This document shows, one piece after another, positions 6,995-25,958 of a stretch of 64,000 nucleotides of DNA. The notes under the pieces were generated by a model, which did not search any database, was not told the DNA's origin, and was given only the letters and a program-made list of their open reading frames with translations. Source of the stretch: Roseobacter sp. MED193 (lineage in GTDB: Bacteria > Pseudomonadota > Alphaproteobacteria > Rhodobacterales > Rhodobacteraceae); NCBI RefSeq assembly GCF_000152965.1, contig NZ_AANB01000005.1, forward strand, positions 124,001 through 188,000, written 5' to 3'. The stretch's first letter is position 1, and the number at the start of each line of letters is the position of its first letter. A program made the position numbers and the translations under genes.

Positions 6995-7989
6995 TGCGGG
7001 CGCAACTGGTCCAAAAATGGCGTCCGTCTCTGGCGCTGGTGCTGGGTGGCGGGTTGGCGGGCACGCTGGTGCTCTCCCTGATCGGGTTGGTTGCCCTCCG
7101 CTATCTGGGGCCTGAAATCGGCTTTCGCAATGCTGCCGCCCTTCTGGGCTCCCTGATCCTGCTGGCAACCGCCTTTCTGGGCTGGCTCTTGGTGCGCTTG
7201 CTGCTCTCGCCTATTCGCGCGCTCAACGCCTATGCCGCTCAGACCCGCAGCCAACCGGGGCAAACCCTTGATCCCCCTGATCAATCTGGAACCGCAGAGC
7301 TACACGAGATGGCCAGGAATGTGGTCGACATGGCGGATCATCTCCGCAACCGCGAAATGACTATCCGCAGTTTCACCGATCACGTCAGCCATGAGATCAA
7401 AACCCCGGTTTCCGCCATTCGCGCCGCCTCTGAGTTGATCGAAGACAGCGGCACCCTCGCGCCTGACGATCAAAAACTGCTTGCACAGATTGATGGGGCT
7501 GCCCGTCAGATTGAGGACCAACTGACGGCCCTGCGCGAAGTTGCCCGCGCCCGTGAAATGACCCATCAAGGCAGCGCCAGACTCGACACGCTTCGAACCT
7601 GGCTCAGGGAGGATTTTGCCGATCTAGGCCTGTCCTTCTCTGGCGCGGCGCTTTCACTGCCGATCGGCGAAAGCGGCTTACGGGTGATCCTGACGCAGCT
7701 GTTGAACAACGCCCGTGAACAAGGGGCACAAAGCGTCGTGATTGCTGCGCAGGGGTCTCCCTCTGGGCTAGAGCTCAGCGTTTCAGATGATGGCAAGGGC
7801 ATCTCTCCCGGCAATGCCGCGCAGATTTTTGACCCGTTTTTCACCACCAAACGCGACCAGGGCGGCACCGGCATGGGGCTGACAATCCTGCGTAATATGC
7901 TGAGCGTCCATGGCGGCGAGATCTCACTACGCCCAGGCGAGAGCGGGGCCTGCTTTGTTGTCGCTTTTACACCTGTCCCGACGCGCTGA
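6994..7989 (+). CDS. Sensor histidine kinase (partner of preceding regulator)
   Basis: A 331-residue membrane histidine kinase. Two transmembrane helices (about residues 14-37 and 48-70) are separated by only about ten residues, so there is almost no periplasmic sensor domain; the signal may be membrane-borne or come from a partner such as the DUF4173 protein. Then come a HAMP-like linker (LLLSPIRALNAYAAQ), the dimerisation domain with His133 (DHVSHEIKTP) and a HATPase domain with an N box (LNNAREQG), DDGKGI, and GGTGMGLTI. Coupled to the regulator gene by a one-base overlap. Confidence 0.9.
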   Translation: MRAQLVQKWRPSLALVLGGGLAGTLVLSLIGLVALRYLGPEIGFRNAAALLGSLILLATAFLGWLLVRLLLSPIRALNAYAAQTRSQPGQTLDPPDQSGTAELHEMARNVVDMADHLRNREMTIRSFTDHVSHEIKTPVSAIRAASELIEDSGTLAPDDQKLLAQIDGAARQIEDQLTALREVARAREMTHQGSARLDTLRTWLREDFADLGLSFSGAALSLPIGESGLRVILTQLLNNAREQGAQSVVIAAQGSPSGLELSVSDDGKGISPGNAAQIFDPFFTTKRDQGGTGMGLTILRNMLSVHGGEISLRPGESGACFVVAFTPVPTR

Positions 7990-8072
7990 AACCCGCTCAC
8001 GCCTGGGTGGCATTTCTCCGCAACCTCGCTAGGCTGGCAGCAGCTACCCCTTGCGCGCCGGAGCCTGTTTTC

Positions 8073-9314: not shown

Positions 9315-9320
9315 TGTGAT

Positions 9321-9354
9321 CAGATCCCCCTGCCCCCTCGCGCAGGGGGATCTG
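9321..9354 (+). terminator. Strong hairpin after the second transglycosylase gene
   Basis: CAGATCCCCCTG (9321-9332) and CAGGGGGATCTG (9343-9354) form a perfect 12-base stem with a ten-base loop, seven bases after the stop codon. There is no long T tract. Confidence 0.7.
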
Positions 9355-9427
9355 TCGTGCTATAGCAACGCGATCATCACCAGGGCGGCCCCTTTGGCGA
9401 CCCGAACGCAGGACTTAAAAACATCAC

Positions 9428-10441
9428 ATGAAACGCGTTCTTGTTACCGGCACGGCCGGCTTCATCGGTTTTCACCTCGCCAAACTGCTGCTGGACGAAG
9501 GCTTTCGTGTGCATGGGTTTGACGGCATGACGGAATACTACGATGTCGCCCTGAAACAGCGCCGCCATGCCATGCTGCTGCAACACCCGAACTTTTCAGC
9601 CACCGAAGCGATGTTGGAGGATACACAAGCCTTTGACGCCATGGCCGATGAATTTGCGCCCCAAGTGATCATTCACCTCGCCGGACAGGCCGGTGTCCGC
9701 TACAGCCTTGAAAATCCTAGATCTTACCTAGAGACCAATGTGATGGGCACCTTCAATGTGATGGAAGCTGCCCGCCGGTTAAAAGTCGAACACCTGCTGA
9801 TGGCCTCCTCCTCCTCTGTCTATGGTGGCAATGATGTGATGCCCTTTACCGAGTTGGATCGCACTGACGCCCCACTGACCATCTATGCCGCCAGTAAAAA
9901 GGCGAACGAGAGCATGGGCCATTCTTACGCGCATCTCTGGGACCTGCCCACCACCATGTTTCGGTTCTTTACCGTCTATGGGCCCTGGGGGCGGCCAGAT
10001 CTGGCCTTTTACAAATTTGGCGATGCCATCCTCGAAGAACGCCCTATCGACATCTACAACCACGGTGAGATGTACCGCGATTTCACCTATGTCGACGACC
10101 TGGTGCGCGGTATCCGCCTGCTGATCGACGTGGTGCCCCAGCGCCCGGCCAGCAAAGAAGAGATCGAAGAGGGCGATAGCCTGTCTCCGGTGGCGCCCTA
10201 CCGGGTGGTCAATATCGGCAATTCCGAGAAAGTGCGCTTGCTGGATTTCATTGACGCGATTGAAATCAGCCTCGGCAAAAAGGCCATTCGCAACTACATG
10301 GAGATGCAGATCGGCGATGTGCCCGCCACCTGGGCCGATGCGACGCTGTTGAAAAAGCTAACGGGCTATCAGCCGCAAACCAATTTCCGCGAGGGGATTG
10401 ATCGCTTTGTCACCTGGTTTCGGGACTACTATCAGAAATAG
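9428..10441 (+). CDS. NAD-dependent sugar epimerase, UDP-glucuronate 4-epimerase type
   Basis: A 337-residue short-chain dehydrogenase/reductase-type nucleotide-sugar epimerase. The N-terminal Rossmann motif is VTGTAGFIGFHLA, and the catalytic pair is in IYAASKKANE (YxxxK). The segments HLAGQAGVRYSLENP, TVYGPWGRPDLA and EMYRDFTYVDD are those of UDP-glucuronate 4-epimerases (CapI/LspL type), which make UDP-galacturonate for polysaccharides. It stands alone, followed by the convergent parB gene, and no other polysaccharide genes are nearby. The exact sugar is inferred from family resemblance. Confidence 0.85.
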   Translation: MKRVLVTGTAGFIGFHLAKLLLDEGFRVHGFDGMTEYYDVALKQRRHAMLLQHPNFSATEAMLEDTQAFDAMADEFAPQVIIHLAGQAGVRYSLENPRSYLETNVMGTFNVMEAARRLKVEHLLMASSSSVYGGNDVMPFTELDRTDAPLTIYAASKKANESMGHSYAHLWDLPTTMFRFFTVYGPWGRPDLAFYKFGDAILEERPIDIYNHGEMYRDFTYVDDLVRGIRLLIDVVPQRPASKEEIEEGDSLSPVAPYRVVNIGNSEKVRLLDFIDAIEISLGKKAIRNYMEMQIGDVPATWADATLLKKLTGYQPQTNFREGIDRFVTWFRDYYQK

Positions 10442-10471
10442 CAGCCCCGATCTAAGCAACGGCGTGTAGCC

Positions 10472-11539
10472 TCAGCCAATCTGACGGGCGATCAATTTCA
10501 GGATCTGCTCTGCCGTATCGGCATTGATCACCCTCCCCTTCAGCTCGATCCGCAGCCCATCGGATGACACCTCCGCACTCAGCGCACCACCTTTGGGCAG
10601 ATCACGGCTTGGCAACCGGGTGATTTCCTGCGGACGCCCCCCCCGAGACCTGTCACGTGGCGCGGCGCTTGCGTCCTTTAGTGTCTTTTGCAGCAGCGCC
10701 CATTCGGATTTGGCGTCCTGTGATTTTGCCTCGGCCAGCGCAGCGCGCAACTGGCCTTGGCGGCCATCCCGCAATGCGGTTGCCAGGGCCAGCCCCGCCT
10801 TTTCGGTCAGGCCGGTTGGGTACTGCAACAGATCGCCCAGGGCCTCATGCACCAGGGCAAAGCTGCGCACCTTGGAGCGTTTCGCCTTGGAGGCCGCTGC
10901 AAACAGCGCATCCACCGCGGCCTCAATGCTGGGAAAAACCTCTTGGCCCTTTGCCAGCACGGCAATGCGCCCGCGTTCATAATGGCTGAGGTTGGCACGC
11001 ACCTCGTTTTCTTCGACCATGGAAACATAGGCCGCCTGCCCTGCGTCGGCCTCGCGCACAAAGGCCGGGATCTGGGCAAATCGCTCATCCCCGCCCGCAA
11101 GCGCGCGATAGGCCTGCAAGCGACGAAAGCCAGAGATCAGGCCATAGCCCGTGCTCGTTTTGGCCACCTCAATCGGTGCGCGCAAACCGTTTTCTTTGAT
11201 CGAGGCTTGCAGCTCCGCCATGGCCTCGGCGTCCTCAACCAGCCGGTCGCGGCGGATAAAGTCCTGATCGATGTCAGAAAGCGCCAGCATCTGCACCACG
11301 AGGCCGTCTTTTTCAGCCGCGCGCCAACGGGCGGCATCGCTTTGGTCATGGGCCAGCGCCACCCGATCCGTGACCCCAGCCATACTGTTCAAACTGGCGG
11401 CCTCGGCGGCAACCTGGGCTATCGGGGGCACCGCAGATTTTGTTTCAAACGGATTGGCCGAGGGTTTCGTCGCGAAACCCTCCTCCAGCTCTTGTAACTC
11501 GCTGGCATCCGGGGCGATCAGTCTTCTACGTTTAGCCAT
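10472..11539 (-). CDS. parB: ParB-family partition protein
   Basis: The centromere-binding protein of the replicon's partition system (355 residues). The N-terminus is basic (MAKRRRLIAP), followed by a ParB N-terminal domain (about residues 90-190) with IKENGLRAPIEV and the GFRRLQAYRAL box, then a helix-turn-helix region (ANLSHYERGRIAVLAKG). The start at 11539 has GGAGA upstream and overlaps the parA stop by eight bases, showing an operon with coupled translation; a start at 11563 would add eight residues. A parS-like palindrome lies inside its own coding sequence (11462-11480). Confidence 0.88.
   Translation of the reverse strand: MAKRRRLIAPDASELQELEEGFATKPSANPFETKSAVPPIAQVAAEAASLNSMAGVTDRVALAHDQSDAARWRAAEKDGLVVQMLALSDIDQDFIRRDRLVEDAEAMAELQASIKENGLRAPIEVAKTSTGYGLISGFRRLQAYRALAGGDERFAQIPAFVREADAGQAAYVSMVEENEVRANLSHYERGRIAVLAKGQEVFPSIEAAVDALFAAASKAKRSKVRSFALVHEALGDLLQYPTGLTEKAGLALATALRDGRQGQLRAALAEAKSQDAKSEWALLQKTLKDASAAPRDRSRGGRPQEITRLPSRDLPKGGALSAEVSSDGLRIELKGRVINADTAEQILKLIARQIG
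11462..11480. promoter_or_regulatory. parS-like palindrome, copy 1 (inside parB)
   Basis: GGGTTTCG-TCG-CGAAACCC: perfect eight-base arms around a three-base centre. The same core recurs at 13032-13048 and 14604-14620. It has the form of a ParB-binding centromere site. Confidence 0.6.
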
Positions 11540-12917
11540 TCTGTTCGTCTCCCATATTTGCATCGCGCCACCAGCAGCCGATCAGCAGTTCTTTGAACTC
11601 GGCATATGTTCGATCAAAGGTCTCCCGCCCTCGCACATAGGTGTCGCGGTTAAAGTCCCGATAGTCGGCCTCATAAATCCCGTTCACCTGCTCGCCAGCC
11701 TGACCAACCAAGGCTGTGTAGTCTTGCCGGTAGGCATTCATGAAATCACCAAAGTAGGCTTGGATCACATTGGCCATATCGGTCTGCTGGCTGGCGTCAA
11801 ACCGTGTGACAATGGCCCGTACTACATCCCATTCGAACTTGATTTCAGGTAACCCCGCCGCGCGCTGTGCGGAATTTTCACCGTCTTCGATCGAGGCAAA
11901 GGTGGTATAGAGCATGTCAAAAAACCGCCCCGTAGAGTCGAATTCTAGATAAGACGCCCCCAGCGGCACCAGCAGAATATCTGCCGCCGCCAAGGCATTG
12001 ATCGTAAGATAGCCAAGCGCAGGCGGTGTATCGAGAAAGACCACATCATATTGCTCGAGGATATCTTCATCCTGCAGGAAATTGGTCAGCCCATCCCACA
12101 GCGGCCAGCTGCGCAGCCCCATGCGCCAGACCGGAATTTGAAACTCGGCCCAGTAGAGATTGAGCTGCGCCCCGATAAGATCGATATTGGGCCAATGGGT
12201 TTTTTGGATGACATCCTGAGGCGTGGTCTTCAACGCCTCTTGCAGGGTTTCGTCTAAAGGGATTTCAGGCTGACCGGCAGCGGCGCGCACCTCATTCTCA
12301 GCTGTGACGGCTTTGGCGTAGTCCTTCGCCACCAGGGGAAAGACCGTTTGCCATTCATCCGCAACCTTCCCCCCCATGATCGAGGTCATGGATCCCTGGC
12401 TGTCGAGATCGATCACAAGCACCTTATAGCCGTCCAGAGCCGCGGACATCGCCAGGTGGGCAGCGGTCGAGGTCTTTCCTACCCCTCCCTTAAAATTCGC
12501 CACTGATACGACCTTGGCTGGCAGGCCTTTGGGGCGGTAAGGCACATATTCTTTGGTGCTCACACCTTCGCTGTCGAAATGCTGGCGCAGGGCCAGAACT
12601 TCTTCCAGCGTGAACCATTTGGATCCGCCTTCGCCCTCTCCCTGTGGCAGGTCAGGATTGGCCTTTAAGACGCGGCGTAGATGGGCTGGGGCGACGGGGA
12701 TCAGGTACTTTGTGATTTCCCAAGTCGAAAACTTTCGCAGACGTTTCTGCCCATCTGGGGCATAGCCTCGGCGCGCCAGATCCTCACGGCCCTTTGTGCA
12801 AAACGCTGCGGCCTTGGCAAAGCGCGCTGTGCCAATGGGGGGCGGCAGTTTCTTCGCAGCCGCTTCTGGGTCCAGATTAAGATAGGGGGGCAGGGCGGGA
12901 GACGTGGGTTTGCTCAT
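11532..12917 (-). CDS. parA: ParA-family partition ATPase
   Basis: A 461-residue partition ATPase. The deviant Walker A box KGGVGKTS is at about residue 145 (VVSVANFKGGVGKTSTAAHL), followed by DLDSQGS and the Walker B-like VVFLDTPPALG. The first 110 residues precede the ATPase domain and include a helix-turn-helix-like segment (FSTWEITKYLIPVAPAHLRRVL), as in large plasmid ParA/RepA proteins that also repress their own operon. The long form and the tight overlap with parB fit a low-copy plasmid. It is transcribed away from the rep gene across a 598-base region that probably contains the origin. Confidence 0.9.
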   Translation of the reverse strand: MSKPTSPALPPYLNLDPEAAAKKLPPPIGTARFAKAAAFCTKGREDLARRGYAPDGQKRLRKFSTWEITKYLIPVAPAHLRRVLKANPDLPQGEGEGGSKWFTLEEVLALRQHFDSEGVSTKEYVPYRPKGLPAKVVSVANFKGGVGKTSTAAHLAMSAALDGYKVLVIDLDSQGSMTSIMGGKVADEWQTVFPLVAKDYAKAVTAENEVRAAAGQPEIPLDETLQEALKTTPQDVIQKTHWPNIDLIGAQLNLYWAEFQIPVWRMGLRSWPLWDGLTNFLQDEDILEQYDVVFLDTPPALGYLTINALAAADILLVPLGASYLEFDSTGRFFDMLYTTFASIEDGENSAQRAAGLPEIKFEWDVVRAIVTRFDASQQTDMANVIQAYFGDFMNAYRQDYTALVGQAGEQVNGIYEADYRDFNRDTYVRGRETFDRTYAEFKELLIGCWWRDANMGDEQNG

Positions 12918-13031
12918 GGGATTGCCTCATATCATGTTCGCCTTTTTGGCGTATATCTGGGAAACTAGCGGACATCCCCGCAGCAATCCAGCATTGTTAT
13001 GAATTATTGTCCAAGAGATGTAAAAATCGCA

Positions 13032-13048
13032 GGTTTCGCGACGAAACT
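13032..13048. promoter_or_regulatory. parS-like palindrome, copy 2 (parA-rep intergenic)
   Basis: GGTTTCG-CGA-CGAAACT: six-base perfect arms (GTTTCG/CGAAAC) around a three-base centre, matching the copies in parB and rep. Confidence 0.55.
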
Positions 13049-13175
13049 GTCTGAAATCAGAATATTAGGCACAACATATGTTTAGGTATTTTAGTAATTT
13101 TAGAATCTTTATTCAGGAAATAGTAATATATTTCAATTCTCTAGCCCACTTTGGGTGCCCGCAAACGGGTCTAAA

Positions 13176-13474
13176 GGTACCTTTCTGCGGTATCAAAGGT
13201 ACCCGGTAGCGGGACAGTAGGTTGCCTGGTTCGGGATGTAAGGTGCCGATTCTCAGGATGGAGCTTAGAGTCTATATTAGGCTCTTGAGAGGGTGTTTAG
13301 GCTCTGAATTGACTCTGTGGCGGGGTCGGGTTGAGGTGCGCTGTATGGCCCGTTATGGCGATTTGGTGGCTGGGCGAGTCGCGAAGCAAAACGGACCGGC
13401 CTGGGTCTTTCCTGTATATGGGTACCTTAGAAGTTCGATGTTGGGAACCTATCATTGATTGATTGGCAGGTACC
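13176..13474. repeat. GGTACC and TTAGGCTCT repeats upstream of rep
   Basis: GGTACC occurs at 13176, 13199, 13421 and 13469, often in an A/T-flanked context (AAAGGTACC twice; GGTACCTTA and GGTACCTTATAT). TTAGGCTCT occurs twice at a 20-base interval. They may be initiator-binding iterons or rep operators. Confidence 0.45.
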
Positions 13475-13515
13475 TTATATGGCATGATGCCAAAAAAATC
13501 GAGCAGGCAAATGGT

Positions 13516-14778
13516 ATGAGCGATTCCCAGATTGACATGGATTCTCTCTCTGGCCCGTTGCGGCGGGAGACAGTGAAAAAGAATGTGGCTGCAATTCATA
13601 TCAGCGGCAAACTCAGCCTGTTGCAGCGGAAGCTGTCCAATGTGCTGCTGCTCAATGCCTATGATGCGCTGACGACGGCGCAGAGCCATACAATCGATGC
13701 GCGGACCTTGGCGACCATCGTTGGCTACAACTCCAATGATTTTGACACCCTGCGCGCCAGCCTAAGGGCCCTGGCCGAAACGGTGGCGGAATGGGATATG
13801 CTGGATGAGAAGGGGCGGCAGGAATGGGGGGTCTCGTCCCTGCTGTCCTTTGCCAAGCTCAAGAATGGGGTTTGCGAATATGCCTATTCGCCAGCCTTGG
13901 CGCAAAAACTGCACGACCCCAAGATCTACGCGCTGATCAATGTGCATATCCAGCGCAACTTCAGCTCCGGCCACGGGTTGGCGCTCTATGAAAACTGCTA
14001 TCGATTTGTACGCACCCGCTCGACGGGCTGGTGGAGCCTTGAGACCTTTCGGAAGCTGATGGGCGTGGATGGCTCGAGCTACTACGAGAGCTTTAAACAT
14101 CTGAACGCCAAGATCATCAAACCGGCGGTGGCAGAGGTAAACAAAAGCTCGGATATCATCATCACGCCAGAGTTCCAGAAAAAGGGCAGGGCGGTTACGG
14201 AAATCCGTTTCCTGATCAAGTCAAACCCGCAGATGGCGATGTTCCAGATCGATGACAGCGATGGCATGCGCAATCTGTCCACTTACAAGGCGCTGCGTGG
14301 GCAGGGGGTCTCTGACCGTTTGGCACGGCAATGGATCACCGAACATGGGGAAGACTATGTGAAGCAGAAACTGTCGCTGATGGGGGAGCAGGCCCAGGTC
14401 AAAAGTTCGGTTGGTTATCTGTCAGCAGCGCTGCGCGATGATTACCAGCCTCAGAAAACACCGGCAAAGGTCGAACCCAGCCCGGAGGCGATTGAGGCCG
14501 CACGTCTGCGGGATCAGCAGCGGGCCCAAGAAGAGGCTGAATATGCGGCGCGTCAGGCGGAGCGGGCAGGGCGCGCGCGCCTGCTTGACCTGGTGGAGGA
14601 CCTGGTTTCGCGGCGAAACCCTACCCAGCGGGATGCAGACAAGCAGCTATTCATGGCCAGCCTTGACGAAGACCTGGAACGCGAAAACTTTCGCGCCCAT
14701 GGCTGGCGATCTGCTCTGAACGCCAGTGCGATCATCGCATTTTGGCAAGAGATGGAGCCGGAGGCTTTTGAGGTCTAA
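13516..14778 (+). CDS. Plasmid replication initiator (Rep_3-like)
   Basis: A 420-residue initiator that presumably binds the adjacent origin and opens it. The N-terminal half (about residues 20-230) shows the tandem winged-helix style of Rep_3/RepB-type initiators: KLSLLQRKLSNVLLLNAYDAL, ALYENCYRFVRTRSTGWWSLETFRKLMGV and KSNPQMA. The C-terminal part is charged and helical (QQRAQEEAEYAARQAER). The ATG at 13516 is preferred over a TTG at 13459, which lies inside the repeat region. A parS-like palindrome lies within the gene at 14604-14620. Roseobacter plasmids fall into RepABC, RepA, RepB and DnaA-like groups; this is clearly not RepC and probably one of the last two. Confidence 0.8.
   Translation: MSDSQIDMDSLSGPLRRETVKKNVAAIHISGKLSLLQRKLSNVLLLNAYDALTTAQSHTIDARTLATIVGYNSNDFDTLRASLRALAETVAEWDMLDEKGRQEWGVSSLLSFAKLKNGVCEYAYSPALAQKLHDPKIYALINVHIQRNFSSGHGLALYENCYRFVRTRSTGWWSLETFRKLMGVDGSSYYESFKHLNAKIIKPAVAEVNKSSDIIITPEFQKKGRAVTEIRFLIKSNPQMAMFQIDDSDGMRNLSTYKALRGQGVSDRLARQWITEHGEDYVKQKLSLMGEQAQVKSSVGYLSAALRDDYQPQKTPAKVEPSPEAIEAARLRDQQRAQEEAEYAARQAERAGRARLLDLVEDLVSRRNPTQRDADKQLFMASLDEDLERENFRAHGWRSALNASAIIAFWQEMEPEAFEV
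14604..14620. promoter_or_regulatory. parS-like palindrome, copy 3 (inside rep)
   Basis: GGTTTCG-CGG-CGAAACC: perfect seven-base arms around a three-base centre. Third copy of the element within 3.2 kb. Confidence 0.55.
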
Positions 14779-14991
14779 CTGGGCGGGGGACAAGGCTCTG
14801 CCGTTTGGTTTCCCCTTGCTCAAAGCTGTGCGCTTTTCCCTAAGGGGTCACACGGAGATCACATAGGGTCTGCATGCTGGTGAAAGCCCCGGGAATCGGA
14901 TAGAAAAAATGGGACAGCTGAAGACCTGTCACTGCTGGATCTGAATCGCTTTGTTGCCCAGTTATATGGGGTAGAGGAAAGAAATGACCGC

Positions 14992-15174
14992 ATGAAACAT
15001 GTTCCAAAAGAAACCACCGATGACGCTCTTATTCAGGAATTTCTGAACAAGGGTGGAACAGTCAGCGTTGGCAAAACCAAACCCATGCCAAGCGAGCTTG
15101 GGTTGAGCAACAATGTCTGGAACAACAAGATGACCAAAGAAGAAAAAGCCGCCCGCGACGGCCCCAAGAAATAG
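14992..15174 (+). CDS. Small hypothetical protein (60 aa)
   Basis: A 60-residue, charged, soluble protein with the segment LIQEFLNKGGTVSVGKTKP and a Lys/Glu-rich tail. I do not recognise a named family, though small alphaproteobacterial proteins with an E-F-L-x-K-G-G motif exist. The upstream GAGGAAAG is a good ribosome site (about 10 bases before the ATG), which supports expression. It sits 213 bases after rep and is followed by the iorB remnant. Function unknown. Confidence 0.55.
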   Translation: MKHVPKETTDDALIQEFLNKGGTVSVGKTKPMPSELGLSNNVWNNKMTKEEKAARDGPKK

Positions 15175-15242
15175 GGCTTCCTGTTTCAACGAGCCAGGTG
15201 TTTGGGGCGGGGTTTAGGCCTGAGCCGTCCAGTTGCACCCTG

Positions 15243-16505
15243 CTATGGTGGGGGAGTTGCTGGAACCGTGCTTGAAAAAGATATCACGGTTTCAATAGCC
15301 CCCTCCAGATCTTTGCCCTCGGCATCCTGTAGTGCTGCGGTACGCAGCCGGGCAACCCACTCAGCAGCATCATCGCGATGGGCCAAGAGCGGGAGAGTCT
15401 CCATGATCCGGGAAAATTTTGACAGTCCCCGACTATGGGTGTCGGAATAGCCTTTGATCAGGCGACGACAAAGAAGAATTTCAATCGCCAAATCATACTT
15501 TTGTGGCAAGGTTTGTTGGCACAGCGACAGCCAGTTCTGTAGATGCGCCTGTTCGATCTTGTGGCGGAGGCTATAGCGCCGGGTGCGGCGCAATCCGGCG
15601 ATCAGGTAGAGCAGAACAAATCCCCGCAGCCGGTGGGTGCGGATGCGACGCCCCTTGTTCAGGCGACGGTCAATCCAGGCTGCCAGTTTTGGGCGGGACT
15701 CTATCCACGCCCCTAGGCGGGCAGGCAGAAGGCTGATGATCTCTTCACCGCGGGGGTGAAAGAACTCGGTGAGGAGGACTGGCTTTTCCTCAGCCTTCAT
15801 CTCGGTTTGGATACGGTCAAACCGGCTCTTGCGGGTTTTGAGATCAGCAACCCGGATAATGTCATCGTAGCACATGGCATTGGCAATATGTTTGGCGGCG
15901 GCCTCGGCCAGGCGCCCGTCACCGGAGTCTTGTCGAGCAAAGGCGGTCAGATGGGAGAGGTATTCTCGCCCATAGGCCAGGTCCTGAAAGGCCACGACGC
16001 GGCGCAGCCCACGCAGCGCCATGTCAGCACCGGGCAGGGCCTCAGCCTGGGCTGCCAGTTCTTGCCAGTGTTGAACCTGTCGGGCAGGTCCTTGGGCAGG
16101 CTGCGTTTGTGTGATCGGCGCAACAGGTCTTGACGGTGCGGTCTCATCGGACTTTGCCTGGGCGCGCGCATAGGCAGCCCCAAAGGCGCGCAGGCTGGCC
16201 TCGACTCCTTTGCCAGAGGCGCGGATTGCTTCCTCAAATGCTGCACGGGGAAAGGGCAGAGCCCCTGACCCGGCCAGAGCCCCAAACAGCGCCGATGAAA
16301 TCACCGACCCGTTTTCCACTGCCAACCGGTCCATATCAAACAGAATAAGGTGATCAGCAGCTATTTCAGCAGCAGCGCGCACTTCGTCACTTGAGGCAAT
16401 GCCATCTCCGGGCGCCATCTTTTCCGACAGGGCTAGGGTGCGGTGGCTGGAGGCAATCAAGGTGGTGCGGTCCGGCGTGACAAAGCCACGCATGATGGCG
16501 CGGCC
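15243..16505 (-). pseudogene. iorB: 5'-truncated iorB (indolepyruvate oxidoreductase beta subunit)
   Basis: The reading frame encodes the C-terminal four-fifths of an IorB-type protein (about 420 residues; full-length proteins have about 510-520). Recognisable segments are GRAIMRGFVTPDRTTLIASS, VENGSVISSALFGALAGSG and the long C-terminal extension typical of alphaproteobacterial IorB. The family's N-terminus, with its GGEGGG-type nucleotide-binding loop, is missing. Homology stops at about 16,505; upstream codons are antisense to the neighbouring synthetase gene. iorA, normally upstream in the same operon, is absent. I infer a non-functional remnant left by a deletion. The open frame itself runs on to 16,694. 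Confidence 0.72.
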
Positions 16506-19025
16506 GCAGGTCAAAACATCGCGATTTTTGCCCCACGCGGCGCAGCACAGGTGCTGGCAATGGCCGCAGTTCTGGAGTGTGGCGGCGTGCTCATGACTCT
16601 TGATCCGGATCTGCCCGAGGATCGACGTGCGGTTATGCTGGAACAAGGGCGGGTCAAGCGCATTCTTTATGGTGGCGGGCTCACTGCTTCGCAAATGAAC
16701 TGGTTAAAAGGGCTGGAGCTTCCGCGCCTTCCGATTACACAGGCTGTATCGCGCCGAGAGGTGCAAACCTTTAGCGCCAATCGTTTTGCGCCACCCTGCG
16801 GGGCGCGGGATCCAGCCTATCTGGTCTTTACATCCGGCTCTACCGGGACCCCCAAAGCAATCTTGGGCACAGCCGGCGGGCTGGCGCATTTTCTCAGCTG
16901 GCAGCGTGATAGCTTTGAGATTGGGCCCGGTGATCGTGCTGCGCAGTTTACCGGGCTGTCCTTTGATGTGCTGCTGCGCGATGTCTTTGTCCCCTTGATT
17001 TCAGGGGCGACACTTGTGATCCCCCCAGAGGGGACCGGACCTGCCCAGCCTGGGGCGCTCGGCTGGATGGATCAGGCCGAAATAACTCTGCTTCACAGTG
17101 TGCCTTCGCTCCTGCAAAGCTGGGTGTCGACAGAGCTTTCTGTATCAAAACTTCCGCATCTGCGACTTGCATTTATTGCTGGGGAACCTTTGGAGGGCGC
17201 CCTGCTGCGCCGATGGCGCCACCGTTTCGGTCAGGCTGTGAGGTTGGTCAACCTCTATGGGCCGACCGAAACGACGCTGGCCAAATTCGCGTTTGAGCCA
17301 GGCCCTGATGTCTTTGAGGCTGGGCAGCCCGTGGGATATGCGCTGCCTCAGACCAGGGCGGTTATCGTGACTGCGCGTGGCAAACCTGCCGCTTCGGGTG
17401 AACTGGGTGAAATTGCCATCGCCACTCCATTTATGTCCTTGGGATACGTCAATGACCCCTCTTTGACCAAGGCAAGGTTTATTCCCTCTCCTGACGCGGG
17501 CGATAGGGATAGAGGTAAAGAGGATTTCATTTATCTGACCGGAGATCTGGGTTGGCTCGATCCGGCGGGGCGGTTGCATGTCGCGGGCCGAATTGATGAT
17601 CAGGTCAAAATCCGTGGTATTCGGGTGGAACCCCTTGAGATCTCTGCGCTGTTGGAGCAGCACCCCGCAGTCGCTGCCAGCGCGGTTGTGGCACGCCGGA
17701 ACGCAGCAGGGGAGATGGAGCTGGACGCCTATTATGTTATGGCGCACGCCAACCTGAACAATACCCAAACAACAGAGCCGCAAATGCGGGCCCAATTGCG
17801 CAGCTATCTGCGCGCGCGTCTGCCTGCTGCATTGGTACCTAATGGGCCCTTGCTGCTGCCAGAGTTGCCGCTAACGCCAAATCATAAACTAGACCGTCGT
17901 CAACTGCCCCCTATAGTCCCGCTGCAAAATAGCCCCTCTGGGCAAGCGCCCAGCTCTGCTGTTGAGGGTCAGATGTTGCAGATCTGGGAAGAGGTGTTAG
18001 AAAAGTCGGACTTAGGGGTCAATGATGACTTTTTTGATGTCGGAGGTCATTCGCTCCTGGCCTTGCGGTTGGTGCTGCTAATTGAACAACGCATGGGGGT
18101 CAAAATTCCCCTGGCGGAGCTGTTCAAATCTGCCACCATCGCCCATCTTGCTGAGGTGGCGCAGACGAGGGAGACAGGCGATGGCCTGGTTCCTCTTTGG
18201 TTGCGTGGGGAGGGGCCGCCACTTTGGATAGTACATACTGGCGGTGGGATGCTGTGGAATTACCAGCCTTTGGTGCGCGCCCTTGCGGCAGATTTCCCAA
18301 TCTACGGGTTCGAAGCCAAAGGCCTGTTTGACGGGGCTGAGCCGCAGGACAGTATTGCAGCGATGGCGTCATCCTTTATCCAAAATATGCGTCATCATCA
18401 GCCACAGGGGCCCTATCGCTTGGCTGGGCACTCCTTTGGGGGCCTGGTGGCCTGGGAGATGGCCTGTCAATTGCAGGCAGCCGGGGAAGAGGTGTCTGGG
18501 GTCTATCTATTCGACAGTAGCTTGACCCGTCCTGATGACGCCTGGCACGCCGACCATAGTGCGGCGCGTGTGGCGGCGCGGGATCTTTCTGTTGCGGTCC
18601 AGGTATATGCCCGTTTTACCCAGAGTGACCTGAGCCTGGAGGAAGGGGCCTTGTCCGATCTCTCCCTGGAGGAACAGCTTGGGCGCGCCGCTGATGTGAT
18701 GGCCGCCAGTATCGGGTCGAAACCGGCCGCGCGCAAATTGGTCGAGGGGGTGTTGCGGATTTCCAATTCCCACCGCGCGGCACGGCTTGCGTATCACCCT
18801 GGGCGTCACACCGCCCCAGTGGTCCTGTTTCAGGCGGAGGACGATCGCAAAGCGGATCCGGATTGGGCACAGTTTTGGCGCGAAACGGCTGGGGGTGCGT
18901 TTGAGACCCAGGTGGTGCCCGGTGATCATGTCACCATGATGGCTCAGCCTCATGTCGAGGTTCTGGCCCAGGCACTGAAAGCGAGCCTTGACCAAAGAGA
19001 GGTGAGCCGATCCTCAGCGGTCTAG
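16443..19025 (+). pseudogene. 5'-truncated NRPS-like synthetase (A-PCP-TE)
   Basis: The frame encodes an adenylation domain that begins inside the fold (homology from about 16,509, GQNIAIFAP), then a peptidyl-carrier domain and a thioesterase. Visible motifs are FTSGSTGTPKA (A3), NLYGPTETT (A5), YLTGDLGWL (A7), GRIDDQVKIRG (A8), LTPNHKLDRRQLPP (A10), DVGGHSLLALRL with the phosphopantetheine Ser (about residue 537 of the frame) and GHSFGG with the thioesterase Ser (about 664). The family N-terminus and any proper start codon are lost: codons 16,443-16,508 are antisense iorB. The rest has no stop or frameshift, so the damage may be recent. It overlaps the convergent phosphatase gene by 12 bases. 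A truncated but expressed protein cannot be excluded. Confidence 0.7.
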
Positions 19026-20732
19026 AATTTCTGGCAACATGCGTCCGGTTGTGCCCGATGGCAGTCGGGTGCCTGCATAGCCGGCGATTGTGGGTGCCAC
19101 ATCGACGGTCTGCACTTTGCGATGCACCACCTGAGCCGGAATTCCGGGGCCCATGAAAAATATCGGGACATGCCGGTCATAGGCATAGGGAGAACCATGC
19201 TGTGATGCACCTGCTAGCGGGTCTGGATCTTTCATGAACCAGCCAGGAGAGAGTATCGGATATAAATCCCCGGACCGGGAGGGCATGAAATTCGCTGTCA
19301 CGGCCCGTCCAATATGCGTATCCGGCAGGCTTCCCTGTGCGATGTGGTCCCTTTCAAAGACCCAGGCCAGCCCCGGCAGCCCGCGCAGGGTCGCAATTAT
19401 CAGCGCCTCAGCCTCAGCCGCGCCAGCCCTTGTGAACCGCAGGAGGTCATGATCCAGATAGATCCAGGGAGAGGTGTAGCTGCTGATGGGGTCATTGATA
19501 CCGTATTTGGCCTTGAAGGCCTGTATGGCCGGTGCCTGTTCAACCTGATCATAGTCAAAGAGATCCAAGTTTGTGCGCAGCCGTGCATTCATATAATCGG
19601 GAACTTCGGTCGCGCCATGATCGGCCGAAAGAACCACCAGCGTGTTCTCTAGCCCAACAACCCGCTCCAAGTGGTCAAAAAACGCGGCCAATTGCGCATC
19701 AAGCCGTTTGAGAGTGTCTTCGGCCTCCAGCGAGGAGGGGCCAAAGGTGTGGCCAACATAATCGACGGAGTTTAGGCTGACGGCCAGGTAATCCGTCACC
19801 TCATCCGTGCCAAGTTGCTCGCCCGCGATCAGGGCCTTTGCAAAGCTGAGCGTGAGCTCATCCGCTGCTGGCGATGTCTCCAGGAAGGCTTGATAAAACC
19901 CATCTGACGGATCTGGGTATTGATGCTCCGGGAAGGTGATACCCCAGCCGGGATAGTCTTTCTCCCAGGGTTGGTCATCAAAGGCGGCAAACACATAGTT
20001 GGCTATGTCGTAAAGCAGCTCCCAGCCTGAACCGGCGTAGCTCTCGGGTAGCTGCCTGTCGGTCCAGTTTTGATGCCATTGCGGGTACGCTTCGACATAG
20101 AAGGTAGAGCTGAGAAAAGTCGATTTTTCAGTGTTGTACCAATAGGCCGTCCCCGCATGGCCTGTTGCCCCAATGGCGGCGCGGTCTTTCATCGAAACCC
20201 CAAAGATCTTGGCCTTTGCGCCACGGGACAGGCGAATCTCATCGCCGATTGTCGTTACCAGAAGATCGCGCGGGGACCGGCCTGCTTCTGGAGCAGACAG
20301 GCTGCCGTCTGGGTACAGCAAGGGGGCGCTGGAATCCTGGGTGGCAAAGTGCAGCGCATCCGACACGTCCAGCACGATACCCTGTGTGTCACTGCCTGTT
20401 GTATTTACATCGGAACTTGGAAGCTGGGTGTCGAGATAATTATTGCCGATGAGCCCATGAACCGCGGGATCTGCCCCGGTTGAGAGGGTGGTGTGCCCAA
20501 CCACCGTCTCCGTATTGGCGTGGCGATGTTCTGCATCCCTGAACCAGGTGCCTTTGGTCATGAGGCGTTGAAACCCGCCCTCGGTGAAACCGGTCGAATA
20601 TCGCAGCAAAAGGTCGGCCCTGAGTTGATCCACGGTAATTTGCACGATCAGTTTCGGCGGCAGGTCCCGCCCTTGAGCAGAGAGCAGCGTTGATGTTCCC
20701 AACAGGAGCGAAACCAAAAATATGAGGCGCAT
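19014..20732 (-). CDS. PafA-like alkaline phosphatase/phosphodiesterase (secreted)
   Basis: A 572-residue alkaline-phosphatase-superfamily enzyme with a Sec signal peptide (cleavage near LLSAQG). The N-terminal metal ligand segment is LIVQITVDQLRADLL; ANTETVVGHTTLSTG holds the nucleophilic Thr region; further metal ligands are suggested by VDYVGHTFG, LSADHGATE and ASQHGSPYAYDRHVPIF. This pattern fits PafA/nucleotide-pyrophosphatase-type monoesterases, which release phosphate from organic esters in the periplasm. It is a single gene converging on the synthetase remnant. No Pho-box was identified. Substrate unproven. Confidence 0.85.
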   Translation of the reverse strand: MRLIFLVSLLLGTSTLLSAQGRDLPPKLIVQITVDQLRADLLLRYSTGFTEGGFQRLMTKGTWFRDAEHRHANTETVVGHTTLSTGADPAVHGLIGNNYLDTQLPSSDVNTTGSDTQGIVLDVSDALHFATQDSSAPLLYPDGSLSAPEAGRSPRDLLVTTIGDEIRLSRGAKAKIFGVSMKDRAAIGATGHAGTAYWYNTEKSTFLSSTFYVEAYPQWHQNWTDRQLPESYAGSGWELLYDIANYVFAAFDDQPWEKDYPGWGITFPEHQYPDPSDGFYQAFLETSPAADELTLSFAKALIAGEQLGTDEVTDYLAVSLNSVDYVGHTFGPSSLEAEDTLKRLDAQLAAFFDHLERVVGLENTLVVLSADHGATEVPDYMNARLRTNLDLFDYDQVEQAPAIQAFKAKYGINDPISSYTSPWIYLDHDLLRFTRAGAAEAEALIIATLRGLPGLAWVFERDHIAQGSLPDTHIGRAVTANFMPSRSGDLYPILSPGWFMKDPDPLAGASQHGSPYAYDRHVPIFFMGPGIPAQVVHRKVQTVDVAPTIAGYAGTRLPSGTTGRMLPEILDR

Positions 20733-20961
20733 AGCTTATCCAATCATAAGGGGCCTAGACAAAGAACTGGAGATGTCGCGATCTTGGAGTGCGGATTTTG
20801 GGCCCCCAGGGGTCGGGACCATCTTCCACGATGTCAGAGAACAGGGGGCTTTAGACCCTTATAGGTGATTTTTTGGATAAAAAACACCCTTAAGTAGTGC
20901 TCTTGGTGTCTGGCAGTCTGTCGCGTGAAAGCGCCCTGGTTCGGACCCGTCGTTAGGGACC

Positions 20962-21618
20962 TTATTCGGCAGCGTTTTTCAGGCCTGCCATCAAGCTGTG
21001 AAACTTTTCGCCTTGGATTGCCACATGGCCGCGAAGCGCATGGGCGGCAGCCTCTGAATCACCAGCCTCCAAGGCTTCCAGTATGGCTTTGTGTTCGCTC
21101 ATGGACTGCGCCATACGACCGCGAAACCGCAACTGCTGGCGGCGAAAAGGCTGAAGCCGACGGTGCAAATTTCCGGTCTCTTTTGCAAGAAACCCGTTGC
21201 CTGCCTCTTGGTAGATGATTTTGTGGAACTTTTCGTTTTCGGCGTAATAGTCATCAGTGTTCTGGGCACTGACCGCCGCCTGACATTTCTCATTGGCGCT
21301 ATGTAACTCTGCCAGCGCAGCGTCTGAAATGCGTTTCGCTGCCAACCGACCGCAGGCGGCCTCCATCTCGGCCATGACCTCGAACATCTCTAAGAGCTCA
21401 ACCGGTCCAGGCTGGCGGACAAAGGCCCCGCGGCGGGGAATAAGCTCTACCAGGCCAGAACGTGCAAGCCTTTGTAACGCCTCTCTTAAAGGGGTTCTGG
21501 AAACGCCAAAATGTTCTGCAAGACGGACCTCATCCAACCGGTCCCCATCTGAATGGGTTCCGTCAAAAATCCGCTCTTCCAATTGTTCGGCGATAAGATC
21601 CGCGTGACGTTTTTCCAT
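20962..21618 (-). CDS. matR: GntR-family (FCD) regulator, probable malonate regulator
   Basis: A 218-residue transcription factor: N-terminal winged helix (about residues 8-70, DEVRLAEHFGVSRTPLREALQRL) and a C-terminal all-helical FCD ligand domain (about 78-205) with the expected FHKIIYQEAGN and MSEHKAILEALEAGD metal/ligand segments. It is divergent from the malonate TRAP/matAB operon and separated from it by 138 bases that contain a perfect palindrome (21663-21676). Position and family make it the likely MatR; malonate or methylmalonate would be the ligand (inference). Confidence 0.85.
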   Translation of the reverse strand: MEKRHADLIAEQLEERIFDGTHSDGDRLDEVRLAEHFGVSRTPLREALQRLARSGLVELIPRRGAFVRQPGPVELLEMFEVMAEMEAACGRLAAKRISDAALAELHSANEKCQAAVSAQNTDDYYAENEKFHKIIYQEAGNGFLAKETGNLHRRLQPFRRQQLRFRGRMAQSMSEHKAILEALEAGDSEAAAHALRGHVAIQGEKFHSLMAGLKNAAE

Positions 21619-21662
21619 GGTTTCAAGCTAACAAACGCGACTATGAAATTCAAGAGTTGGCA

Positions 21663-21676
21663 TCTTGTATACAAGA
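21663..21676. promoter_or_regulatory. Operator-like palindrome in matR-dctP intergenic region
   Basis: TCTTGTATACAAGA is a perfect 14-base palindrome. From memory it is very close to the operator reported for Rhizobium MatR. It ends three bases before a possible -35 (TTGACT, 21680-21685), which is followed after 17 bases by CTATCG as a poor -10. Confidence 0.7.
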
Positions 21677-21756
21677 ATGTTGACTTGAAAAACACAATCC
21701 GCCTATCGTGAAGGCCACCCGGCTTGTTCCGGGTTGGATTCTTTTGGGAGGAAGAC

Positions 21757-22743
21757 ATGACATCTATTTTGAAGACCGCCGTTGCCACGCTGGCACTTGC
21801 GTCCTTTGGGACATTGGCCGGGGCAACTGAACTGCGCCTATCGCACCAATGGTCCACCAAAGACATCCGGCATCAGGTCGCCCAGATTGTTGCTGACGAA
21901 GTTGCTGCGGCAGATGTGGATTTGGACATCAAGATTTTTGGCTCGAAATCGCTCTTTAAGCCACGTGAGCAGTATAAGCCGTTGAGCCGGGGTCAATTGG
22001 ATATGACCGTGCTGCCCCTGTCTTATGCCGGTGGCCAGCAGCCAGCATATAACCTCACTCTTATGCCGGGCCTGGTAAAGAACCACGACCACGCTGCGCG
22101 TCTGTCAAACTCTCCGTTTATGGAGGCGCTTGAGGCCAAGATGGCCGAAGATGATGTGATGGTCTTGGTGCACGGCTATCTTGCAGGCGGATTTGCAGGC
22201 AAAGACAAATGCATCACCAGCCCCGAAGACGTGAAGGGATTGCAGACCCGTGCCGCGGGCAAGTCTTTTGAGCAGATGCTGGCAGGTGCGGATGCTTCGA
22301 TCGCATCCATGGCTTCGTCTGAGATCTACAACGCGATGCAGACGGGTGTGCTTCAGGCCGCAAATACCTCGTCCTCGTCCTTTGTCAGCTATCGTATCTA
22401 CGAGCAGGTCAGCTGCTATACGCCTGCAGGCGATGTGGCTCTGTGGTTCATGTATCAGCCCCTGTTGATGAATAAACGCACCTTTGAAGGTCTGAATGAG
22501 GCCCAGCAGAACGCGCTGTTGGCAGCGTCAGAGAAGGCAGAAGCCTATTATCTGGAAGAGGCCAGAAAGCAGGATGCAGCCTCCGCCAAGGTCTTTGCAG
22601 ATGCGGGCGTGGAAATCGCTCATATGAGCTCTGAGGATTTTGCGGCCTGGCGCCAGTTGGCGATGGAGACCTCATACCAGAAGTTTGTGGAAGAGGTCGC
22701 TGACGGACAAGAACTGCTCGATCTGGCTTTGGCCGTCGAATGA
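21757..22743 (+). CDS. dctP: TRAP substrate-binding protein, probable malonate receptor
   Basis: The periplasmic receptor of a second TRAP system (328 residues). The ATG at 21757 follows GGGAGGA and gives a Sec signal peptide ending near LAGATE. DctP-type segments include LRLSHQWSTKDIRHQ, FKPREQYKPLSRGQLD, VKGLQTRAAGK and YNAMQTGVLQAANTS, with the conserved Arg that grips a carboxylate. The genes downstream are DctQ, DctM, malonyl-CoA decarboxylase and malonyl-CoA synthetase; malonate is therefore the likely substrate, as for the DctPQM proteins of rhizobial malonate loci. Confidence 0.87.
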   Translation: MTSILKTAVATLALASFGTLAGATELRLSHQWSTKDIRHQVAQIVADEVAAADVDLDIKIFGSKSLFKPREQYKPLSRGQLDMTVLPLSYAGGQQPAYNLTLMPGLVKNHDHAARLSNSPFMEALEAKMAEDDVMVLVHGYLAGGFAGKDKCITSPEDVKGLQTRAAGKSFEQMLAGADASIASMASSEIYNAMQTGVLQAANTSSSSFVSYRIYEQVSCYTPAGDVALWFMYQPLLMNKRTFEGLNEAQQNALLAASEKAEAYYLEEARKQDAASAKVFADAGVEIAHMSSEDFAAWRQLAMETSYQKFVEEVADGQELLDLALAVE

Positions 22744-22824
22744 GTCTTGGGCGGGGCGGGCTTTGTTAGCCGCGCCCTGCCACCGCTTTTTCTCTTTCTG
22801 CATTCATACCAACAAGAGGTGCAA

Positions 22825-23373
22825 ATGGCTGGTCATAGCTCTGCCGTTGCTTCCCATACGGGGAACAATCTTTTTCTACGCGTCGTTGCGGCGTTATCCA
22901 CTGTGGCTGGCTGGTGCTCCGCTGCCATGATTGTTTCTGCCGTGGCAATCACCTGTCAGATGATCGTTGTACGTTTCGTGCTGAACAAGTCCACCATCTG
23001 GCAAACCGAAGCAGTGATCTATTTGGTCATTGCGGCAACTCTGATTGGCCTGCCCTATGTTCAGCGCCTGCGCGGGCATGTGAACGTGGACCTGATCCCG
23101 ATTTCGCTGCCGCCACGGCCACGTTTCTTTATGGCGATTGTGACCTCTCTTCTGTCTATCACAATCGTTTCGATCATGCTGTTTTACGGCTACGAGTACT
23201 GGCATTTTGCCTGGCAGCGTGGATGGAAATCAGACACCGTTTGGGGCGTTCGACTGTGGATCCCCTATCTTGCAATCCCTGTTGGATTTGGCCTGCTGCT
23301 GCTGCAGCTGATTGCCGATCTGTTCGCCGTCTTGATTGGCATAGACAAGCCCTTTGGCTTGGAGGACACCTAA
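22825..23373 (+). CDS. dctQ: TRAP small permease (malonate system)
   Basis: The small membrane subunit (182 residues) with four hydrophobic helices and the family pattern CQMIVVRFVLNKSTIWQTEAV. The ATG at 22825 has AGAGG just before it; a start at 22747 would add an N-terminal hydrophobic stretch not seen in DctQ. It ends directly before the DctM ATG. Confidence 0.86.
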   Translation: MAGHSSAVASHTGNNLFLRVVAALSTVAGWCSAAMIVSAVAITCQMIVVRFVLNKSTIWQTEAVIYLVIAATLIGLPYVQRLRGHVNVDLIPISLPPRPRFFMAIVTSLLSITIVSIMLFYGYEYWHFAWQRGWKSDTVWGVRLWIPYLAIPVGFGLLLLQLIADLFAVLIGIDKPFGLEDT

Positions 23374-24690
23374 ATGGACCCACTTCTGCTTGGGGCAATT
23401 GTAGCAATTGCCACCATCCTCGTACTGTTTTCAGGCGTCTCCGTGGCTCTGGGCCTGCTGATCGTTTCTGCAGCCTTTCTGCTCATCTTTGACGGGGCGC
23501 GTTCACTGGAGCTGATGCCGGAACTCTTGTTCGGCAAGCTGGATAACTTTGCGCTTTTGTCTATCCCGATGTTTATCATCATGGGATCCTCCATCGCCTC
23601 GACGCGGGCAGGTGCCGATCTGTATGAAGCGCTGGAACGCTGGCTGACCCGTGTTCCCGGTGGGCTGGTGGTGTCCAACCTCGGGGCCTGTGCGCTTTTT
23701 GCCGCGATGTCTGGCTCATCGCCAGCGACCTGTGCGGCGATTGGCAAAATGGGCATCCCAGAGATGCGCAAGCGTGGCTATCCGGATGGCGTGGCGGCTG
23801 GATCAATTGCAGCCGGTGGCACGCTGGGCATTCTGATCCCTCCCTCTGTCACGATGATCGTCTATGGCATTGCTACTGAAACCTCCATTGGTCGGTTGTT
23901 TCTGGCCGGAGTAATCCCCGGGTTGATGTTGGTAGGATTGTTCATGGCCTGGTCGCTCTATTCCACATGGAAATCCGGCAATGCGGCCCAACTGGGCGCA
24001 GGCAGCTATACCTGGGCCGAGCGCTTTGAAATTCTGCCACGGGTTCTGCCTTTCCTGGGCATCATTTTGGGGGTGCTCTATGCCATGTATGGCGGCATTG
24101 CGACCCCTTCCGAGACCGCGGCCGTCGGCGCATTGCTCTGTCTACTGATCGCGATGGTCATCTATAAGCTATGGAATCCAAAGGATCTTTGGGTGGTGCT
24201 GCGCGACAGTACCAAAGAATCGGTGATGATCCTCTTTATCATCGCAGCGGCCGGTGTGTTTTCTTACATGCTCAGCTCGCTCTTTATCACCCAATCGATT
24301 GCCGAATGGATCGGGACGCTTGAGGTAAACCGCTGGGTCTTGATGGGCGTTGTGAATGTCTTTTTGCTGATCGCCGGGTTCTTTCTGCCACCTGTTGCGG
24401 TGATCCTGATGGCTGCCCCGATCCTGTTACCGATCATCGACACGGCGGGGTTTGACCCGATCTGGTTCGCAGTGGTTCTGACCATCAATATGGAGATCGG
24501 CCTGATTTCTCCGCCTGTGGGTTTGAACCTCTATGTGATCAACGGTATCGCACCGGATATCTCGCTCAAGACCATTCTCACGGGGTCGTTGCCCTTTGTC
24601 GGCTGTATGGTACTGGCCATCGTTCTGCTGTGCCTGTTTCCGAGCCTGGCGACCTGGTTACCTGATCTGGTTATGGGGGCAACCCGATGA
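23374..24690 (+). CDS. dctM: TRAP large permease (malonate system)
   Basis: A 438-residue DctM of normal length with about 12 hydrophobic segments and typical Gly-rich loops (LFAAMSGSSPATCAAIGKMG, AGGTLGILIPPSVTMIVYG, GGIATPSETAAVGAL). The gene starts immediately after the dctQ stop and overlaps the decarboxylase gene by four bases, so transport and catabolism are translationally linked. Confidence 0.9.
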   Translation: MDPLLLGAIVAIATILVLFSGVSVALGLLIVSAAFLLIFDGARSLELMPELLFGKLDNFALLSIPMFIIMGSSIASTRAGADLYEALERWLTRVPGGLVVSNLGACALFAAMSGSSPATCAAIGKMGIPEMRKRGYPDGVAAGSIAAGGTLGILIPPSVTMIVYGIATETSIGRLFLAGVIPGLMLVGLFMAWSLYSTWKSGNAAQLGAGSYTWAERFEILPRVLPFLGIILGVLYAMYGGIATPSETAAVGALLCLLIAMVIYKLWNPKDLWVVLRDSTKESVMILFIIAAAGVFSYMLSSLFITQSIAEWIGTLEVNRWVLMGVVNVFLLIAGFFLPPVAVILMAAPILLPIIDTAGFDPIWFAVVLTINMEIGLISPPVGLNLYVINGIAPDISLKTILTGSLPFVGCMVLAIVLLCLFPSLATWLPDLVMGATR

Positions 24691-25958
24691 CATTGCTCGC
24701 GGATCTTCTTTCAACGGTGTTTGAGCGGCGTTATCGCCGCGATGCATCGGAGCTGGTCGAAGATGGTCGGCCATTGATCGAATTGGCAACGGATTTGGTG
24801 GGATCAACGGGTGAGACATCAGGGCTCGCCCTGGCCCGGCAGATACTGTCCCGGTTTGCTGATTTGGACGACGCGCAAAAGCTGTCTTTCTTTTGCGACA
24901 TTGCCACCACGATGAACATTGATCCCGAAGAGGTTCGCAGCGCCCTGGATGCCTATGAACAGGCCCCATCCAAGGCCACCTACCGGGCCTTTTCGGAGGC
25001 TGCGGAACCTGCCCGCCAAGAGCTGGTGCGTCGCCTGAACAGTGTGCCTGGTGCCACCGGCGCCTTGGTAAATATGCGGGCAGATCTGCTGAGGCTAGGT
25101 CGTCGGGATCCAGAGCTGGAAGCCCTGGATCTGGATTTCCGTCATCTCTTTGCCTCCTGGTTCAATCGGGGCTTTTTGGTTCTGCGCCCGATAAACTGGG
25201 AAAGCCCGGCGCATATTCTGGAGAAAATCATCGCCTATGAGGCGGTGCATGCGATCGACAGCTGGGAAGATCTGCGCCGCAGGTTGGAGCCTGCGGACCG
25301 CCGTTGTTTTGCCTTTTTCCATCCCTCCATGCCTGACGAACCCCTGATTTTTGTCGAGGTCGCTTTGACCCGAGGAATTCCAGGATCGGTTCAGGCGCTC
25401 TTGGCGGAAGACCGTGATGCCATGGCAGCAGGAGACGCAGATACGGCTGTCTTCTACTCGATTTCCAACTGTCAGGCGGGCCTGGCCAGCATTTCCTTTG
25501 GCAACTCTTTGATCAAACAGGTGGCCTCTGACCTCTCTGCTGAGCTGTCGAAACTGAACACCTTTGTGACCCTATCGCCTATTCCGGGGCTGACCAAATG
25601 GCTGGATCAGGTTGGGTTGAGCTGGGACGTTGAAGCGCCAGAGGCCATGCAGGCTCTGGCCGCGCATTATCTGCTGAACGCCAAATCCCGTGGGACGTTA
25701 CCCTTTGATCCGGTCGCTCGGTTCCACCTTGGCAATGGCGCCATCGTTCATGCGGTGCATGCTGACGCAGATACCTCGGAAAAGGGGCGATCTCAGTCAG
25801 GAGGCACCATGGTAAACTACCTCTACGACCTTTCAAAAGTCGGCCAGAACCACGAAAATTTTGCCACCACCCGTGAAGTCGTTGCCGCCTCTCCCGTCAA
25901 AGCTCTGGCGGCATCCGTGGCTGTTCCAACGACCCAAGAAAGGACCTCCCATGGCTAA
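24687..25958 (+). CDS. matA: Malonyl-CoA decarboxylase
   Basis: A 423-residue enzyme converting malonyl-CoA to acetyl-CoA and CO2. It has the helical N-terminal domain and the GNAT-like catalytic domain of the family; the segments LVNMRADLL, FNRGFLVLRPINWESPAHILEKIIAYEAVHAI, RRCFAFFHPSMPDEPLIFVEVALT and FYSISNCQAGLASISFGN are diagnostic, with the catalytic Ser and His expected in the last of these and in the HPSMP region. An overlap with dctM on one side and an eight-base overlap with matB on the other place it in the centre of the malonate operon. Cytoplasmic. Confidence 0.92.
   Translation: MTLLADLLSTVFERRYRRDASELVEDGRPLIELATDLVGSTGETSGLALARQILSRFADLDDAQKLSFFCDIATTMNIDPEEVRSALDAYEQAPSKATYRAFSEAAEPARQELVRRLNSVPGATGALVNMRADLLRLGRRDPELEALDLDFRHLFASWFNRGFLVLRPINWESPAHILEKIIAYEAVHAIDSWEDLRRRLEPADRRCFAFFHPSMPDEPLIFVEVALTRGIPGSVQALLAEDRDAMAAGDADTAVFYSISNCQAGLASISFGNSLIKQVASDLSAELSKLNTFVTLSPIPGLTKWLDQVGLSWDVEAPEAMQALAAHYLLNAKSRGTLPFDPVARFHLGNGAIVHAVHADADTSEKGRSQSGGTMVNYLYDLSKVGQNHENFATTREVVAASPVKALAASVAVPTTQERTSHG

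Follow-up and report, generated by a model that had tools for sequence, protein, structure and literature searches.

Within the window, by which we mean the whole stretch of 64,000 nucleotides analysed here (bases 124,001-188,000 of the 262,888-bp contig C4), two unrelated metabolic genes have been truncated and joined head to head, and we put the probability that their junction is a rearrangement scar at about 0.9. This figure refers to a rearrangement scar in general and not to a deletion in particular. The two truncations have a common breakpoint, the other halves of the two genes were not found in the genome, which comprises 4,674,070 bases in four contigs and is 99.99% complete, and the remaining part of iorB carries no excess of amino-acid changes. 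The features that bear on the argument are as follows, in window coordinates.

10,472-11,563, minus strand: ParB-like partition gene, part of the plasmid backbone left of the scar.
11,532-12,917, minus strand: ParA/RepA-like partition ATPase, of the same backbone as the ParB-like gene.
13,459-14,778, plus strand: Rep3-family replication initiator, which adjoins the iorB stump here and the intact iorB in the congener G003.
15,243-16,506, minus strand: 3' part of iorB (indolepyruvate oxidoreductase subunit beta family), from a profile match and from blastn against G003.
16,497-16,508, no strand: the junction, whose exact point is blurred by 8 bp common to the G003 iorB and one of three NRPS proxies.
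16,497-19,025, plus strand: 3' part of an NRPS gene, with an A domain that has no start, a PCP and a thioesterase (TE); the C domain is gone.
19,014-20,732, minus strand: type I phosphodiesterase / nucleotide pyrophosphatase, a full open frame.

The left-hand gene is best understood from G003. From 8 to 16,506 the window is collinear with the congener contig G003:C5 at about 96% identity in blastn, interrupted by a small extra piece of G003:C5 near 5.5 kb. Beyond the break, G003 continues into an intact iorB (524 aa) followed by iorA (716 aa). The placement of a replication gene next to iorB is common to G003 and C4. The stump represents the last 420 codons of the 524-codon iorB, without a stop or a frameshift, and about 104 N-terminal codons are gone. 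Correspondingly, the minus-strand frame that contains it (15,243-16,694) covers 95-511 of the 514 positions of the NCBIfam profile NF006179, whereas the intact G003 homologue matches from position 9. The Pfam POR domain is matched at 74-172 of 173, just under the Pfam cut-off, as against a match from position 1 in G003, and DUF6537 is also present in the stump. The same end point was seen in more distant sequences: a blastn search of 16,300-16,720 against 72,556 plasmid records matched 29 of them, and the best 20 of the 29 were all iorB and ended at window 16,505 or 16,506.

The right-hand gene has relatives of C-A-PCP-TE organization, of whose roughly 1,380 codons the last 840 or so remain here and about 540 are missing. 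The plus-strand frame (16,443-19,025) matches 21-409 of the 409 positions of TIGR01733, whereas the full-length NRPS of EL27 matches from position 2. The stump is free of stops over 838 codons, and all eight of the A, PCP and TE motif patterns checked are present. In blastn the window aligns with Phaeobacter sp. 11ANDIMAR09 (G007:C16) from 16,509 to 20,752 and with the congener G008:C1 from 16,497 to 20,752, collinearly in both cases, and with EL27 (G004:C1) in two blocks, 16,509-18,977 and 19,003-20,745, these three congeners all showing 70-78% identity. In the more distant P. leonis (G001) the blastn match runs only from 16,809, but at the protein level the alignment begins near query residue 16-19, like those of the other relatives. 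The longer NRPS of the relatives measures 1,378 aa in EL27 and 1,380 aa in 11ANDIMAR09, and has an open frame of 1,429 aa in G008. That of P. leonis (L014, 6,370-10,508) is listed only from a late TTG, at 1,289 aa; since this TTG lies well inside the gene, the start of the P. leonis gene may be damaged. In 11ANDIMAR09 and P. leonis the NRPS gene stands behind polyketide synthase genes (identified by eye from translations), and a phosphodiesterase gene comes after it in four relatives: 11ANDIMAR09, P. leonis, G008 and, one gene further on, EL27. In a search of annotated plasmids, 37 records matched the NRPS stump; the best 15 of them were all less than 60% identical, the top one at 34%. As a separate observation, the matches on either side of G004:C1 64,511-64,580 in EL27 lie about 15-16 kb apart in G001, G007 and G008, and EL27 seems, from these alignments, to have lost DNA from the same cluster independently.

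The initial annotation had iorB stopping at about 16,505 on the minus strand and adenylation sequence beginning at about 16,509 on the plus strand, and neither position was off by more than a few bases. Agreement between the window and G003 iorB extends through 16,506, and the NRPS frame agrees with its relatives from about 16,497 (G008) or from 16,509 (EL27 and 11ANDIMAR09), so that collinearity with one parent ends where collinearity with the other starts. At most two bases (16,507-16,508) belong to neither homology. The annotation also described both genes as having no N-terminus and each frame as continuing into the antisense of the other, as is indeed seen in the two open frames. Homologues that naturally start at these points would have told against a scar; the longer homologues of both genes start elsewhere.

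The eight base pairs at 16,497-16,504 are the same in the G008 NRPS gene as in the intact G003 iorB, while the NRPS genes of EL27 and 11ANDIMAR09 have only 2 bp in common with iorB at the join. When iorB and the NRPS gene were paired at random, a run of at least 8 bp occurred in 50 of 200,000 pairings. The comparison suggests microhomology-mediated joining at up to 8 bp, and we leave it at a suggestion because the NRPS proxies are 70-74% relatives and not the true parent. Deletion mediated by an insertion sequence was considered and rejected: two coding sequences abut, with no insertion sequence or end of one at the junction, in agreement with the initial view that the breakpoints fell within a few bases of each other and involved no such element.

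A NotI site (GCGGCCGC) arises at the join, C4 having 14 such sites by our count, and this would be in keeping with an assembly artefact, two unrelated plasmid pieces having been wrongly joined. Such an artefact is, in our judgement, highly improbable. The G003 parent iorB has no NotI site at the join, which fits poorly with a chimera made by restriction and ligation, and we rejected a NotI ligation chimera for that reason. The two parents have no more than 8 bp in common there, and an assembler would not be misled by so short a stretch. Each stump has itself as its sole close relative in the genome; the missing halves were not found, as opposed to turning up in a wrong place. Finally, C4 repeats its opening 1,742 bases from base 261,139 onwards, at its end, the pattern expected of a closed circle, and it is probably a circular plasmid of about 261 kb.

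We found no junction common to relatives among the 120 genomes searched per query, our own included. An NRPS match (E <= 1e-120) was present in 5 of the 120 and an IorB match (E <= 1e-60) in 21 of the 120. Both occurred together in our own genome and in G001 alone; the G001 matches sit on separate contigs. Among the titles listed in a literature search, none concerned this junction.

The missing 5' ends were sought elsewhere in the genome by both protein and DNA searches, and were not found. With iorA of G003 as query, only two fused IOR paralogues were recovered, at 25-27% identity, in keeping with the early view that iorA is missing. These fused genes are chromosomal, with open frames of 1,157 and 1,167 aa, and may cover the lost activity. 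With the C-domain region of the EL27 NRPS as query, only a 24% chromosomal relative was recovered. At the DNA level, neither the 8.2 kb that continue iorB in G003 nor, in 11ANDIMAR09, the 8.0 kb that precede the NRPS break had a match in the genome; a control search of this kind, made with another query, gave a match in 12 of 12 genus genomes. The G003 stretch searched beyond the iorB break came to 25 kb, and the last 17 kb of G003:C5 gave one 0.5-kb match at 70%, the other matches being multicopy or shorter conserved ones. The start of iorB, iorA, the C domain and the upstream cluster DNA, not found in these searches, appear to have been lost rather than moved.

The age of the scar can be gauged from the iorB stump. 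Over 419 codons compared with G003, its dS is 0.155 and its dN 0.035 (ratio 0.226), as against dN/dS values of 0.011-0.067 (dS 0.128-0.177) for four flanking genes. The higher ratio of the stump could suggest decay. Of the 26 amino-acid differences from G003, the branch leading here accounts for 8 and that of G003 for 13, with 5 undecided, as judged with seven outgroup genomes at one locus per genome; with the two nearest outgroups only, the counts are 5 here, 10 in G003 and 11 undecided. Had iorB been dead for the whole branch since the split, about 72 nonsynonymous changes would be expected. Comparison of 8 with 13 changes, and with about 72, indicates that the stump was constrained for most of the branch, and the scar is hence probably young compared with the split from G003. 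The early impression that the event may be recent is thus supported.

The NRPS stump shows changes at 27 of 450 positions that are invariant in four relatives, within the range of the controls (15/438, 41/464, 15/438 and 60/483). In relative-rate comparisons its unique changes numbered 60 versus 42, 56 versus 60 and 62 versus 38, the last significantly faster here. The rate comparison being mixed, it was left out of the dating.

Both remaining pieces are probably dead stumps whose function has been lost. They could instead be working genes with new starts, for instance a stand-alone A-PCP-TE protein or an IorB fragment, and the open frames over 420 and 838 codons, which the initial annotation had also called intact, fit such a reading, as does the full set of motif patterns in the NRPS stump. 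A young event accounts equally well for the open frames. The IorB fragment has neither the N-terminal part of its POR domain nor its partner IorA, and the A domain has no beginning, its C domain and upstream cluster DNA being nowhere found. In addition, a scan for sigma-70-type promoters detected no promoter-like site of that type in 16,300-16,800. We therefore give the working-gene reading very little credence. The idea that loss of the C domain freed an A-PCP-TE gene, with a start arising within the antisense of iorB and selection keeping the frame open, is likewise very improbable.

The sequence of events may be pictured as follows. The ancestor would have had an intact iorBA beside the plasmid replication gene, as G003 still has; at another place it would have had a biosynthetic cluster with a C-A-PCP-TE NRPS gene and a phosphodiesterase gene at its end, like those of EL27, 11ANDIMAR09 and G008. 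The interior of iorB would have been linked to the interior of the A-domain sequence by end joining, for which a microhomology of up to 8 bp was perhaps used. Most economically, a single deletion would have taken away the 5' end of iorB together with iorA and its neighbours, as well as the C domain and the cluster DNA upstream of it, and the youth of the event would account for the stumps being still open. One deletion between divergent genes suffices, without additional steps, and we lean towards it.

The arrangement of the relatives' plasmids bears on this choice. In EL27, 11ANDIMAR09 and G008 the replication block and the NRPS gene lie on one contig, in a relative orientation opposite to that on C4, so that an inversion, followed by loss of the other junction, is a natural outcome too. 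In such an inversion the breaks would fall in iorB and in the NRPS A domain, the two genes pointing in the same direction, and the reciprocal junction would later be lost; an inversion inside an EL27-like plasmid would give the same junction. Another form of this alternative is a segment replacement, in which the DNA right of iorB was swapped for an NRPS-phosphodiesterase fragment during plasmid reshuffling. The relatives' plasmids are indeed heavily reshuffled, which leaves room for inversion or segment replacement followed by loss. Stretches that neighbour the NRPS gene in relatives are scattered on C4, at 10.4-13.6, 90.8-92.3, 95.0-97.1 and 97.2-99.6 kb, and the window has a second break at 20,752, behind the phosphodiesterase gene. 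Against an inversion, the searches of the genome recovered no reciprocal product, in which the C domain would be linked to the 5' part of iorB, and an inversion consequently needs the added later loss. Taken together, inversion and segment replacement have, in our estimate, a real chance that falls short of even. For the single deletion, we found no genome with both parents intact in an order and orientation compatible with deletion, and G003, whose assembly is 86% complete, gave no NRPS match at E <= 1e-120. The initial proposal of a deletion or a replicon rearrangement is supported in this general form, longer homologues of both genes being known and the missing 5' ends not having been found in the searches described above.

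To the right of the phosphodiesterase gene and the break at 20,752, window positions 20,968-27,465 (6.5 kb) carry regulator, TRAP-type transporter and acyl-CoA ligase genes, which we take to be a malonate-use operon. The closest relatives of this stretch sit on other contigs, including the chromosome-sized G006:C1 (77%), and no match of similar quality is present in G003. On the other side of the scar, collinearity with EL27, 11ANDIMAR09 and G001 is lost directly behind the replication initiator, at C4 138,771-138,985 (window 14,771-14,985), and the G008 contig starts directly behind the same gene. This site is possibly a recurrent breakpoint.

C4 as a whole is a mosaic. It has a Rep3-type backbone, here called A and represented by EL27 C1 (95.8 kb), together with other DNA, within an 82-kb block at 69,612-151,700 (ending at window 27,700), and this block is flanked by parts of a second plasmid type, B, whose relatives are EL27 C3, G006:C6 and G001:C109. 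Extra A-type DNA is found outside the block, at C4 10.4-25.5 kb. In the three B relatives the two flanks are only 3.9-4.2 kb apart, and between them all three have a ParA-like gene of 434 aa and a ParB-like one, 377-393 aa long (both confirmed by Pfam in EL27, and the ParA in G006 too). The EL27 module also has a 243-aa gene with a weak DnaA_N match, below the Pfam cut-off. The partition/replication stretches of the three relatives have no blastn match on C4, and the one PF13614 ParA-family gene on C4 belongs to A. The simplest reading is that C4 is a fusion of two plasmids of the genus, in which the replication module of A replaces the lost module of B.

Annotation of 15,243-16,694 and 16,443-19,025 as intact iorB and NRPS genes would be misleading. 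The scar offers a roughly dated case of the loss of a gene cluster from a plasmid, and it fixes the position of one breakpoint in a plasmid that itself seems to have arisen by fusion of two replicon types.

The scar is an ordinary product of DNA rearrangement, and two known systems can be set beside it. In chemostat cultures of Salmonella, Sun et al. (2012; PMC3411829) found deletions, duplications and inversions with short repeats at their endpoints; microhomology exceeded 10 bp in the confirmed events, and the deletions showed an enrichment in intergenic DNA. The likeness lies in spontaneous rearrangements flanked by microhomology, with junctions that were not near the IS200 elements of that genome. 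Unlike those events, the present junction lies inside two genes, has at most 8 bp in common and is deduced from relatives. For the plasmid, the counterpart is pMM259, a composite 259-kb plasmid of Martelella mediterranea (Bartling et al., 2017; PMC5613091), which is likewise a large alphaproteobacterial plasmid formed by the fusion of two replicons. As described there, pMM259 has the RepABC modules of both parents, whereas C4 has the partition/replication module of one plasmid type and shows no match to that of the other.
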